Assembly: GCA_017537965.1 (NCBI GenBank)
Contig: JAFYJV010000009.1
Coordinates: forward strand, 1-64,000
Reading direction: 5' to 3'
Source: Bacteroidales bacterium
Lineage (GTDB): Bacteria; Bacteroidota; Bacteroidia; Bacteroidales; F082
DNA: 64,000 bases
Shown in pieces: positions 11,538 to 59,976 of this stretch (position 1 is the stretch's first letter; each line of letters begins with the position of its first letter). The notes under the pieces were generated by a model. It was not told the origin of the DNA and did no database searches. It worked only from the letters and a program-made list of their open reading frames with translations. The translations under genes and the position numbers were made by a program.

Positions 11538-11978
11538 ATGAAAGACTTGATGATTGAACCTGTAGTAGATCCCGTAAGCGAAGCCCGACGCTATGTAGCA
11601 AACGCCCAAGAACTATTAAGAGATCATGGAAAACTCGATTTCGAGACCCAACTTTATCAGGACAGGAAATACGTACGCATGGCTGGCAACACCCTATGGA
11701 ATGGGGTGCTGCTTATTGTTGACGCAGTATTCCATGTGAAAACCAACAACAGAATGCATCCCGATGTTGATGACTATAGGTTTAGTATCTCAAGACGCGA
11801 CCACAAACTGCTTGACCTATTCAACACTGCCCACGAAACGCTCCATGTCTATATGGGCTACGATGGTAACCGAAGGAAAAACCTTTGTCAAGACGGCATC
11901 CACCTCGCCATCGAGATTATAGACCGCTGCGAACTCATGCTGAAAAATAGAAGCGCGTTTCAACTAGATAAAACATAA
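11538..11978 (+). CDS. DUF5618-like protein, copy 1
   Basis: The 146-residue protein is small, helical and soluble, with no signal peptide. It carries the block PVSEARRYVANA near the start, then DRKYVRMAGNTLWNGVLL in the middle. I believe it belongs to DUF5618, whose function is unknown. A paralogue is encoded at 51501-51917; the two share most of these blocks as well as promoter and leader. Copy 1 has a longer C-terminal tail (SAFQLDKT). It is followed 31 bp later by folP, which has its own promoter. Confidence 0.85.
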   Translation: MKDLMIEPVVDPVSEARRYVANAQELLRDHGKLDFETQLYQDRKYVRMAGNTLWNGVLLIVDAVFHVKTNNRMHPDVDDYRFSISRRDHKLLDLFNTAHETLHVYMGYDGNRRKNLCQDGIHLAIEIIDRCELMLKNRSAFQLDKT

Positions 11979-49261: not shown

Positions 49262-49993
49262 TTACTCTGCTTGGGGTTCATCCTTGGCAGCAGCTTCCTG
49301 CTTCTCAAGGTTCTCCTTCAGACCGGCGAGGACTTCGAGGTCACCGAGGGTGCTGTGCTCGATATTCTCGTTGATCTGTTTGACAGCGCGCTTAGCCTGC
49401 TTGGCAGCCTTGTCGGCAGCGTTGTCGGCAGCAGCCTTGGCAGCGGCTTCCTTCTCTTCATAGAGCTTGGAATGGGCAAGGATGATCTTCTTGCTTTCCT
49501 TGGAGAATTCAATCACCTTGAAGTCGAGGGTTTCATCGACTTTGGCAGTGGTGCCGTCTTCCTTCTTCAGGTAACGGTTCGGGCAGAAGCCTTCCACGCC
49601 GTAAGGCAGGGAGACGACAACGCCCTTGTCAGCAGCGCTGATGATCGTGCCTTGGTGGACAGAACCCACGGTAAACACGGTCTCGAACACTTCCCAAGGA
49701 TTCTCTTCAAGCTGTTTGTGGCCGAGGCTGAGGCGACGGTTCTCTTCGTCCACGTCGAGGACGACGACGTCGATGCTCTCTCCAACCTTAGTGAATTCAG
49801 CCGGATGCTTGATCTTCTTCGACCAGCTGAGGTCGCTGATGTGGATGAGGCCGTCAACGCCTTCTTCCAGTTCGACAAAGATGCCGAAGTTGGTGAAGTT
49901 ACGGACGGTAGCAGTGTGCTTGGAGCCGATCGGGTAACGATCCTTGATGTTAGCCCACGGATCCGGGATGAGCTGCTTCATGCCGAGAGACAT
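49262..49993 (-). CDS. rpsA: 30S ribosomal protein S1, C-terminal part (after in-frame TAG)
   Basis: The frame continues that of the first part with no shift; only TAG, CGC and AAG separate them from this ATG. The 243 residues start with the last strand of S1 domain 4 (MSLGMKQL), then hold S1 domain 5 (TVRNFTNFGIFVELEEGVDG), domain 6 (GTIISAADKGVVVSLPYGVEG) and an Ala/Lys/Glu-rich tail. A separate protein starting here would carry an orphan strand. Restart on this ATG right after the stop is possible. I regard it as one rpsA gene interrupted by a point change or sequencing error. Confidence 0.85.
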   Translation of the reverse strand: MSLGMKQLIPDPWANIKDRYPIGSKHTATVRNFTNFGIFVELEEGVDGLIHISDLSWSKKIKHPAEFTKVGESIDVVVLDVDEENRRLSLGHKQLEENPWEVFETVFTVGSVHQGTIISAADKGVVVSLPYGVEGFCPNRYLKKEDGTTAKVDETLDFKVIEFSKESKKIILAHSKLYEEKEAAAKAAADNAADKAAKQAKRAVKQINENIEHSTLGDLEVLAGLKENLEKQEAAAKDEPQAE

Positions 49994-49999
49994 CTTGCG

Positions 50000-50002
50000 C
50001 TA
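50000..50002 (-). other. rpsA: In-frame amber codon inside rpsA
   Basis: The minus strand reads GAC CGT GAA TAG CGC AAG ATG. Homologous S1 proteins have an E-E-R-K-M run here as I recall, so TAG would be one base away from GAG. TAG also ends several intact genes in the window, so it is not a sense codon in this genome. Confidence 0.9.
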
Positions 50003-51181
50003 TTCACGGTCGAGAGTGAGCACCTTGGCTTCCACCTCGTCACCGACTTTCAGGAAGTCGTGAGCTGTACGGAGGTGCTGTGACCATGACATTTCAGAGA
50101 CGTGGATGAGGCCTTCAACGCCAGGAGCGATCTCGATGAACGCACCGTAGTCGGCGATGACAACGACCTTACCCTTGACAATGTCACCCACCTTGAGGTT
50201 CGGGTCAAGAGCATCCCACGGATGAGGAGTGAGTTGCTTGAGACCGAGGGCGATACGTTTCTTGTTGTCGTCAAAGTCGAGGATAACGACCTTGATCTTT
50301 TCATCCAACTTGACGATCTCTTCGGGATGGTTGATACGTCCCCAAGAGAGGTCGGTGATGTGGATGAGACCGTCAACGCCGCCGAGGTCGATGAAGACTC
50401 CATAGGAAGTGATGTTCTTGACAACGCCTTCGAGGACCTGACCCTTTTCGAGCTTGCTGATGATCTCAGCCTTCTGGGCTTCAAGCTCGTCTTCGATGAG
50501 TGCTTTGTGAGAGACCACCACGTTCTTGTATTCCTGGTTGATCTTCACGACCTTGAATTCCATCACGCTGTCAACAAACACGTCATAGTCGCGGATAGGC
50601 TTGACATCGATTTGCGATCCGGGAAGGAAGGAGTCGATGCCGAACACGTCCACGATGAGACCGCCCTTGGTGCGGCTCTTGACGTAACCGTTGACGACTT
50701 CGCCACTTTCGTAGGCTGCGTTGACGCGATCCCATGACTTGAGGATGCGGGCCTTCTTGTGGGAGAGGACGAGTTGTCCGTTGGAGCCTTCTTGGCTTTC
50801 CACATAGACTTCGACCTTGTCGCCCACGGCGAGGTTCGGGTTGGTACGGAATTCAGCGATTGGAATAACACCATCAGATTTGAAGCCGATGTTGACAACC
50901 ACTTCGCGATCAGTCTTGGCAACCACAGTGCCTTCGATGACCTCATGGTCGGCGACTTGGTTCATGGTAGCGACATACTTGTCTTCGAGCTTAGCGCGCT
51001 CGTCGGCTGAGTAGTTGTCGAATTTCTTGTGTGAGGAAGTCCAATCGAAATCTTCGGCCGGAACCGGTTTCTGTTTCGGTGCCTTGGGAGCCTTTGCTAC
51101 GGGAGCTTGTTCAACTGGAGTTTCAACGACCGTTTCTTCTGCTGGCATGGCCTCGTTGATGATGTTTTCGTTTTCTGCCAT
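50000..51181 (-). CDS. rpsA: 30S ribosomal protein S1, N-terminal part (before in-frame TAG)
   Basis: S1 unfolds mRNA on the 30S subunit; it matters especially in Bacteroidota, which rarely use Shine-Dalgarno sites. This 393-residue part has an acidic N-terminal extension, S1 domains 1-3 and most of domain 4 (GKVVVIADYGAFIEIAPGVEG). It stops at TAG just before the last strand of domain 4. The ATG at 51181 (MAENENI) is preferred, as the longer frame reaches into the leader. The promoter at 51311 gives a leader of about 120 bases. Neither part would be a natural domain set alone. Confidence 0.88.
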   Translation of the reverse strand: MAENENIINEAMPAEETVVETPVEQAPVAKAPKAPKQKPVPAEDFDWTSSHKKFDNYSADERAKLEDKYVATMNQVADHEVIEGTVVAKTDREVVVNIGFKSDGVIPIAEFRTNPNLAVGDKVEVYVESQEGSNGQLVLSHKKARILKSWDRVNAAYESGEVVNGYVKSRTKGGLIVDVFGIDSFLPGSQIDVKPIRDYDVFVDSVMEFKVVKINQEYKNVVVSHKALIEDELEAQKAEIISKLEKGQVLEGVVKNITSYGVFIDLGGVDGLIHITDLSWGRINHPEEIVKLDEKIKVVILDFDDNKKRIALGLKQLTPHPWDALDPNLKVGDIVKGKVVVIADYGAFIEIAPGVEGLIHVSEMSWSQHLRTAHDFLKVGDEVEAKVLTLDRE

Positions 51182-51459: not shown

Positions 51460-51513
51460 ATGACTCTAAATTCTAAAATACGAATTCTAAATTCTTTGCC
51501 ATGCGAGACTTAA
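51460..51513 (+). CDS. Possible 17-codon leader ORF overlapping the next start
   Basis: An ATG four bases after the shared leader block opens a frame of 17 codons. Its TAA (51511-51513) lies inside the first codons of DUF5618-like copy 2, in a different frame. Copy 1 has no such frame at this place, since its leader is shorter. It could be chance in an AT-rich repeat tract. Confidence 0.2.
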   Translation: MTLNSKIRILNSLPCET

Positions 51514-51917
51514 TGATAGAAACCGTGTCGGATCCTGTTTCTGAAGCCCGACGCTATGTGGCGAACGCCAAAGAACTGTTGGACGAAAAAGGTCAACTCG
51601 ACTATGAGACTAAACTCTATTTGGATCGAAAGTATGTCAAGATGGCAGGCAATACCCTTTGGAACGGGGTGCTGCTCATTCTCGAAGAGGTGTTTCACCT
51701 CAAAAGCAAGGATCGTCCTCATCCGGATATCATCGACTATAAGGATGCCATCAACAAACGTGACGGCAAACTCTTACGATTAGTCATCGTAGCTTACGAA
51801 ACGATCCATATCTCCATGGGATACGATGGAATCCCTGCCAAAGAAACTTGCCAAGCTGGTTTCCGAATAGCCAACGACATCATCGACCGTTGTGCAACGA
51901 TGCTAGTCGGAAAATGA
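51501..51917 (+). CDS. DUF5618-like protein, copy 2
   Basis: The 138-residue product is a clear paralogue of that at 11538-11978: both begin M-x-DLMIE, then share PVSEARRYVANA, DRKYVxMAGNTLWNGVLL and a closing NDIIDRC or EIIDRC segment. It is helical, soluble and without signal peptide. The function is unknown. An AT-rich tract with repeated AATTCTAAATTCT units sits between the shared leader and the ATG. No gene follows on the same strand; a weak hairpin around 51960-51987 may end transcription. Confidence 0.85.
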   Translation: MRDLMIETVSDPVSEARRYVANAKELLDEKGQLDYETKLYLDRKYVKMAGNTLWNGVLLILEEVFHLKSKDRPHPDIIDYKDAINKRDGKLLRLVIVAYETIHISMGYDGIPAKETCQAGFRIANDIIDRCATMLVGK

Positions 51918-57353: not shown

Positions 57354-58640
57354 CTAAGCGCGCTGAAAAGCTGCTGCCAACCGTTTGAACTTACCGCCAC
57401 GTTCCTCGAAGTTCTTGTATTGGTCGTAGCTGGATGCCGCAGGCGACAGCAGACAAACATCACCAGAGGCAGCATGAAGCCTAAGGTAATTGAAGGCTTC
57501 CTCCATGGTGGCATAAGGCTGACAATGAGAGGTCACGCCCCTATCCTTTATCAGACACATCATTCGCTCACCCGCCTTGCCTGTAAACAACAGATGAGCC
57601 ACAGGGAATTGCGTCAAGAATTCGACCAACGGCATATAGTCGATGTCGCGATCAAAGCCGCCTAACAAAAGGAAGTCCACTTTACCCAAGGTCTGGCAAG
57701 CGGCGATGGTGGCTTGGGGAATTGTGGAGATACTGTCGTTCACGAAACGCACTCCACCATAAGTCCCTACCGGCTCCAAACGATGCTCCAATGGCTTAAA
57801 AGAATATAGATACGGGATCACTTCTTGCACGTCAACGCCATAAGCCGCACAAGCACAAAGCGCCGCCTTCACATTCAAGAGGTTATGAGGCCCAAGCAAA
57901 GGCAACGCCTCCTCATCGATATCAAACTCCATCCGTGAGAACGTCACGTTGTTGACACCCAAGCCCAACGTATCCATCATCAACGAATCATGCACCACGG
58001 CAAAGTCATCCTCTCCCATAAAACGCAACAGATTGAACTTGGCCTGCCTATATCTTTCAAAAGTCCCAAAATGATCCAGATGCTCCTCAAAGACATTAAG
58101 CAGCACTCCCACCTTCGGACTATTGTGGACATATTCCAGTTGATGGGCCGACAGTTCATACACCACCACGCTCTCTTTTGCTATCCGCTCCATCACATCG
58201 AAACAAGGTATGCCGATATTGCCCGTCAAGATGGCATCATGACCCGACGACTTCAGCAAATGATAGATCAAACTGGTTGTTGTGCTTTTACCTTTCGTCC
58301 CCGAGATTCCAATGGTATGCTCATGAAACTGGCTCAGAAACAGGTCTGTTTGCGAAGTGATCTCAACGCCTTTCGTGTCAACACCGAGCAAAGAAATGCC
58401 TGGAGTCTTCACCACCACCTCATAATCGCAAAGGGCGTCAAGGTAAGATTCTCCAGAGTGGAACGACAGCCCTTTTGACGATGTCGATCCTTCAAATGCC
58501 TTTTCGTTGCGATCGGCTACTCCTACTACCAGGTCAGGGAGATACTTTCGCAAGAAAGATAGGGTGGATTTCCCTTCGCGTCCGAATCCGAGGATGAGGA
58601 CGCGTCTTCCACTCAGTCGGTCCAATATCTTTTCAAACAT
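57354..58640 (-). CDS. murD2: UDP-MurNAc-L-Ala-L-glutamate ligase (MurD2-type)
   Basis: The 428-residue Mur ligase has the dinucleotide-like N-terminus LILGFGREGKST, the ATP loop GISGTKGKSTTTS (111-123), NVFEEHLDHFGTFERYR in the central domain and the C-terminal ligase domain. In general annotation it would be MurD. The adjoining murL gene, overlapping by 8 bp (ATGTTTGA), indicates the MurD2 version, which adds L-Glu rather than D-Glu to UDP-MurNAc-L-Ala, the reaction shown for Xanthomonas. The assignment as MurD2 depends on this context. Confidence 0.85.
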   Translation of the reverse strand: MFEKILDRLSGRRVLILGFGREGKSTLSFLRKYLPDLVVGVADRNEKAFEGSTSSKGLSFHSGESYLDALCDYEVVVKTPGISLLGVDTKGVEITSQTDLFLSQFHEHTIGISGTKGKSTTTSLIYHLLKSSGHDAILTGNIGIPCFDVMERIAKESVVVYELSAHQLEYVHNSPKVGVLLNVFEEHLDHFGTFERYRQAKFNLLRFMGEDDFAVVHDSLMMDTLGLGVNNVTFSRMEFDIDEEALPLLGPHNLLNVKAALCACAAYGVDVQEVIPYLYSFKPLEHRLEPVGTYGGVRFVNDSISTIPQATIAACQTLGKVDFLLLGGFDRDIDYMPLVEFLTQFPVAHLLFTGKAGERMMCLIKDRGVTSHCQPYATMEEAFNYLRLHAASGDVCLLSPAASSYDQYKNFEERGGKFKRLAAAFQRA

Positions 58641-59976
58641 GCAATTGTTTCTTTAAGATTTGTTCAAACGCCTCTGGCAGGAAATGCTCAGGGTTGAAAC
58701 GTCTCAAGATGGTCGCCACCGTTGCCTCACCGGCAGGAGAAGGATCCACCAAGCTACCCGTCATATCACCCATGGCATCCACACATGCTCTCACTTCCTC
58801 CACGGTACCCACACACTCAAACGGCTTCACCGCAGCAGTGCCGTTCAATTCCTCGAAAACTGGCCGCAAAGCGACATCCGACATAAGGTCCTTCCCGAAA
58901 ATCGTTGTCAAGCGTTCCCTTGAAAGGAAAGGCGACAAGATCAGCCAGGTAAACAAGCATTTGGGACACTTTCCGCACCACGAGTCGGTCTTGCTTCCCG
59001 CATTGCAACTTCTGAATACCTCATGATAAGCGGCACATTGGCTGAACAGCCAAGCGATCTGCAGTTCGTTGAGCGGACGCAGGAAACTAAAGTACTGTAT
59101 CTCCCCGTTAAGATGTAAGGACACATACTCCCTGAAATCCTTTTCAAAGGCAATCGATTTGCTATACTGGTGGTTGATGTCGGTACCTGGTACGGTGGAT
59201 TCATTGGCACTCGATTCGTTCGACAAGGCGATGTAACGCGACCCACTGCCAAAGCCGACCAGCAGTCCCACAAAGGCCAACAACGCTGAGAACGGCGTAT
59301 GGCCATTCAAAAATCCTTCTTTGTTGAGTTGCAGCAGGGTCGGATCCAAAGACCGTTCAACCATGGCACAACCCTCGTCAGCATAACCTGCCGTATGGAC
59401 ACAGCCCAAAGTAGCACCACGGGGATTTAAGATCAAGGGTATGACCGGCATCTCATGACGCAACAGCTCCAAGGTCACTACCGAGTCTTTGCCGCCACCC
59501 ACAGGAACCAGCGTCTTCTCCTCCAAGGGAAGGCTGATCCGATGCGCAACACGATCGGTACCGGACTCTATCCTTAGGAAGTCCTTTTCTGAACAGGCGA
59601 TGCCATTCAAATAACGAAACTCTCCCAATCCTTGATAATACAGATGCCTCCACCATTTCTTTTGGCAAAGCTTCAGGTCAAAAGGCTTGACAACCACCGT
59701 CTTGGGACAAGCCGCTTTCCAATAACTGACCAACTCCACCATCCCAATATGAAAGGCGAGTGATTCCAACTGATCCCGTGGAATGGATTCCCAGCGATAG
59801 AACGGACGAGCCGGAAACTTCAGTGTCGGATGGAAATAATAACGCTCATCCAAGCTGAAATGGAAGGTCATGGACAACACGCCATGCTCCACCTCCACTT
59901 CCTGACTCATGAAAGTGAACGTCTGAAAGTCCTCTCTCAGTGCATCAAACTTCCGTTGGTTTTCTTCTCGTTTCAA
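58633..59976 (-). CDS. murL: UDP-MurNAc-L-Ala-L-Glu epimerase MurL
   Basis: MurL converts the terminal L-Glu of UDP-MurNAc-L-Ala-L-Glu to D-Glu with ATP, completing a route that avoids glutamate racemase. The 447-residue protein has a PP-loop-type site VPVGGGKDSVVT (GGGKDS at 160-165), the block LSNESSANEST (251-261) and a Cys-rich site SWCGKCPKC (332-340). This combination fits the MurL family as I recall it. The gene is first in the pair with murD2. A -7 box lies 17 bp before the start codon. Confidence 0.85.
   Translation of the reverse strand: MKREENQRKFDALREDFQTFTFMSQEVEVEHGVLSMTFHFSLDERYYFHPTLKFPARPFYRWESIPRDQLESLAFHIGMVELVSYWKAACPKTVVVKPFDLKLCQKKWWRHLYYQGLGEFRYLNGIACSEKDFLRIESGTDRVAHRISLPLEEKTLVPVGGGKDSVVTLELLRHEMPVIPLILNPRGATLGCVHTAGYADEGCAMVERSLDPTLLQLNKEGFLNGHTPFSALLAFVGLLVGFGSGSRYIALSNESSANESTVPGTDINHQYSKSIAFEKDFREYVSLHLNGEIQYFSFLRPLNELQIAWLFSQCAAYHEVFRSCNAGSKTDSWCGKCPKCLFTWLILSPFLSRERLTTIFGKDLMSDVALRPVFEELNGTAAVKPFECVGTVEEVRACVDAMGDMTGSLVDPSPAGEATVATILRRFNPEHFLPEAFEQILKKQLHV

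Follow-up and report, generated by a model that had tools for sequence, protein, structure and literature searches.

Does the TAG that interrupts rpsA in this Bacteroidales assembly mean that ribosomal protein S1 is made in two pieces or by reading through the stop, or is the stop absent from most of the living population? It has been proposed that Bacteroidetes, lacking Shine-Dalgarno pairing, choose their start sites by way of S1 (PMC3155529), and rpsA is reported among the essential genes of Porphyromonas gingivalis, a member of the same phylum (PMC3547785). An S1 split inside an RNA-binding domain, if true, would inform the question of how large a part of the protein is required for initiation. 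At the same time, an isolated stop in a conserved gene of a metagenome assembly calls for confirmation by reads before biological claims are made. The window, the whole stretch of 64,000 nucleotides that was analysed, is part of contig 7 (83,597 bases) of a 41-contig assembly of 2.32 Mb with a completeness of 93.8% and a contamination of 4.1%. Its nearest named relatives, among 80 loci kept, are Bacteroidales metagenome-assembled genomes with 71-96% identity in the best segment. Many of the closest ones come from ruminant gut samples according to their record titles, and the host of the window is presumably likewise a Bacteroidales of ruminant-gut type.

As a first, sequence-only reading had stated, both halves of rpsA lie in one frame and are split by a single TAG that is followed, on the minus strand, by CGC AAG ATG (Table 1). 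When codon 394 was read as X, the product contained six PF00575 stretches and reached 900.7 bits against NF004953, the rpsA equivalog model, whose cut-off is 720 bits, identifying it as bS1; the two parts scored separately gave 589.3 and 292.5 bits. The TAG lies in the fourth of these stretches, eight codons short of the end of the Pfam match, so that domain 4 is cut as claimed. The gene has the same six S1 domains and the same length as the six-domain bS1 (NF004953 / PRK06299), and its identity to bS1 of the nearest genus members reaches 97% (~77-97% across full-length genus members). It differs from these in that the reading frame is interrupted in the assembly by the in-frame TAG, which was found only here among the assemblies examined. 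About stops in general, 3.6% of random single substitutions in this gene would create one.

Table 1 Features of the interrupted rpsA locus in the window.
Feature	Position	Strand	Description	Basis
rpsA, bS1 gene	49262..51181	-	639 codons and a terminal stop; interruption at codon 394	translation and NF004953 score
In-frame TAG	50000..50002	-	rpsA codon 394	sequence, translation; flagged as internal stop in profile searches
rpsA 5' part	50000..51181	-	N-terminal extension, S1 domains 1-3, most of domain 4; 393 aa	
rpsA 3' part from next in-frame ATG	49262..49993	-	domain 4 end, domains 5-6, tail; 243 aa	
First ATG past TAG	49991..49993	-	conserved internal methionine, no recognisable start site	
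S1 domain 4 (PF00575)	49976..50194	-	holds the TAG	profile match

We then compared codon 394 among relatives. It was spanned by 146 relative loci, which represent 108 distinct nucleotide stretches after removal of duplicates, and none of the 108 has a stop there. The encoded residue is glutamate in 99 stretches, aspartate in 4, alanine in 3, and glutamine and asparagine in 1 each; all 36 relatives with a protein at least 84% identical have glutamate. The TAG is one substitution away from the relatives' codon. It is also one of 4 rpsA positions (14, 162, 394 and 637) where the assembly deviates although the compared relatives agree, and it is private to the source assembly among the relatives examined. 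Searches for rpsA listed matches in 152 of the 173 genomes of the family and in 142 of the 149 genomes of the order, two sets that overlap slightly and both contain the source genome. Among the matches listed in these 173 and 149 genomes, no other isolated internal rpsA stop survived our checks. Stop flags in other genomes were TAA flags plus one TGA flag. The TAA flags were discarded, as 16 of 16 had no stop in the aligned part, and the TGA flag belongs to an rpsA with a frame change near residue 178 (G017; L177, G017:C6). In a further genus member, the region around residues 407-428 has suffered an out-of-frame deletion (G016; L178, G016:C113), showing that rpsA breaks of other kinds occur in assemblies of the genus. 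By manual count of the matches listed, 17 of the 99 genus members had no rpsA match and 21 of the 99 had fragments only, which is partly due to low completeness.

Decay of the 3' part of the gene found no support in dN/dS, which we computed against 11 relatives with the relatives among themselves as baseline. The values were 0.006-0.027 for codons 70-393 (relatives' own mean 0.027), 0.010-0.041 for codons 395-573 (0.042), and 0.041-0.186 for the variable tail, codons 574-639 (mean 0.085, maximum 0.197). The region behind the TAG is thus as constrained as in intact genes. Because the downstream domains evolve as they do in intact relatives, the stop is recent, is bypassed, or is absent from the organism.

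How often such breaks arise was estimated over 283.6 kb comprising the window, the rest of contig 7 and 200 kb of contig 17. Open reading frames of relatives cover 193 kb of this and support 156 ORFs, two of them the rpsA parts, although this set may include some non-genes. The only break backed by at least two relatives is the rpsA stop, backed by six. A generally error-rich assembly finds no support in these ORFs. The other flagged events, 26 on contig 17 and 3 on contig 7, have one relative ORF behind each, and many of them are probably antisense shadow ORFs; we adjudicated one event, 40749, and found it to lie antisense to a small gene that is intact and that we take to be HU-like. The same test gave about 3 breaks per 166 supported ORFs in G034, 1/160 in G020, 0/97 in G110 and 0/80 in G112, and the breaks in the first two indicate that assemblies of this kind normally contain isolated breaks at a low level. 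In G034, a gene of ~869 aa near position 111340 of contig C1 has a frame break and missing residues and is intact in G020 and G112. We also considered a chimera with a sampled relative and found no support for one: identity to 12 relatives along rpsA in 120-base windows showed no breakpoint by eye, and the 123 bases around the TAG matched any relative examined at 92.6% at best. A literature search on nonsense artefacts in metagenome assemblies returned no match.

Taken together, these data make it likely that the TAG reflects a consensus error or strain variation in a single-copy rpsA from which ordinary full-length S1 is made. On this view, the consensus of this metagenome-type assembly differs by one base at the TAG, owing either to an error in base calling or consensus building or to a minor or collapsed strain allele. 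rpsA would be otherwise intact and single-copy, and the organism would most likely make the ordinary six-domain protein at full length; most of the living population presumably has a sense codon at 394 and expresses rpsA normally. This explanation draws on the private, one-substitution difference, on the absence of a stop in all 108 relative stretches and of decay in the 3' part, on the isolated breaks usual in such assemblies, on the frequent absence or splitting of rpsA in the genus including the frame breaks in G016 and G017, and on the reported essentiality of the gene in P. gingivalis (PMC3547785). Against it, the sampled assembly is otherwise clean, which speaks against a consensus that is poor throughout; no chimera with a sampled relative was seen, and low completeness accounts for part of the missing or split rpsA among genus members. 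No adaptation is visible around the TAG. The sequence-only reading had offered sequencing error, strain mosaic, amber suppression and stop-restart as options; the first two are the best supported, though indirectly, and the last two found no positive support. We rank an assembly or strain blemish as most likely and a transient true nonsense allele next.

Such an allele would be a real, recent nonsense mutation that is tolerated for a time. A stop that is real and obeyed is predicted to leave a truncated S1 in which domains 5-6 are lost and domain 4 is cut as well. The consensus does show TAG, but the loss would include the end of domain 4 in a gene listed as essential in P. gingivalis (PMC3547785), and the 3' part is free of relaxed selection, which would require the mutation to have arisen very recently. 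We regard this as unlikely. There is a smaller chance still of the more striking case, a rumen or gut Bacteroidales whose sole rpsA would have newly gained a genuine amber codon, and whose S1 would either be held together non-covalently, as two pieces meeting within domain 4, or reach full length by readthrough alone.

Full-length S1 could also arise by readthrough, through leaky termination or a suppressor tRNA, and a lone in-frame TAG with preserved selection downstream is the pattern expected of it. The remainder of the genome speaks otherwise. TAG terminates 17 of the 154 other relative-supported ORFs sampled (the 156 without the two rpsA parts), and it ends all five genes for which this had been asserted, namely the permease, topoisomerase IV A, lipoprotein 20190, the T9SS cargo and GxxExxY. 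With no second interruption backed by at least two relatives in the sample, the claim that the genetic code is unchanged holds for the ORFs sampled. Neither avoidance of TAG nor its reading inside further genes was seen in the sample, and RF1 is present (457.9 bits against a cut-off of 423.25). The search for a suppressor tRNA proposed at the outset found no CUA anticodon among the 44 tRNAs typed in this incomplete assembly. The tRNA set is itself incomplete, tRNAs for Phe, Ile(GAU) and Ala(UGC) being absent from the 44, and a suppressor could sit in the missing sequence. A CUA-loop pattern gave 6 hits, none at any of the 44 tRNA places, and fewer than its reversed control, which gave 55. Amber suppression is thus without positive support, and we consider it very unlikely. 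In passing, the assembly has two tRNA-Trp(CCA) genes (G000 C16:25247-25319 and C2:1151-1223), and no tRNA-Phe was found in it.

The other way of using both parts would be for ribosomes to stop at the TAG and initiate again at the ATG after a gap of six bases, so that S1 would function as a complex of two pieces. The spacing is permissive. In E. coli reporters, termination-reinitiation is reported to fall strongly with distance and to be lost or reduced by 80-90% at +38 nt (PMC10666635), so that a gap of 6 nt is within the range where it can work, and both rpsA parts are conserved. In the gene pairs described as coupled by termination-reinitiation (PMC6728339, PMC10666635), the stop and the next ATG are likewise a few bases apart. 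Unlike these pairs, rpsA has no start-site character at this ATG beyond an A at -3, the arrangement is not conserved, and the cut lies inside a domain. The ATG encodes a methionine that is present in aligned relatives with intact genes. The 20 bases upstream of it are 45% AT, compared with a mean of 72% (lowest 40%) in 25 window genes that were hand-picked from the ORF list, and the 63-base region at the ATG folds at -15.3 kcal/mol, compared with a mean of -5.3 (sd 2.7) in the same genes. The remaining five Met codons inside rpsA gave 40-55% AT and -8.2 to -15.4 kcal/mol. The surroundings of the ATG are therefore closer to those of other internal Met codons than to those of starts, and the region does not resemble the genome's initiation sites; the A at -3, shared with 13 of the 25 window genes, is the sole start-like feature besides spacing. 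As codon 394 is a stop in none of the 108 distinct stretches, no relative shares the arrangement, and nothing suggests that the 6-nt spacing evolved for reinitiation. Of the stop-restart proposal, then, the spacing and the A at -3 stand, while its start codon looks like an ordinary conserved Met; a two-piece S1 has no positive support and seems highly improbable to us.

The weakest alternative, an intact second rpsA in the portion missing from the 93.8% complete assembly, is extremely improbable: the second copy that the sequence-only reading had suggested looking for was not found in the assembly, which outside this gene has three S1-domain matches of one domain each, and among the matches listed, genomes with a full-length match have one match per genome.

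Two further observations concern other genes of the window. The small proteins encoded at 11538-11978 (+) and 51501-51917 (+), MKDLMIEPVVDPVSEARRYVANAQELL... and MRDLMIETVSDPVSEARRYVANAKELL..., resemble each other and are apparently paralogues 40 kb apart. The overlapping genes at 57354-58640 (-) and 58633-59976 (-) both match one longer ORF in L100 (907 aa) and L098, so that in some relatives the pair is fused.
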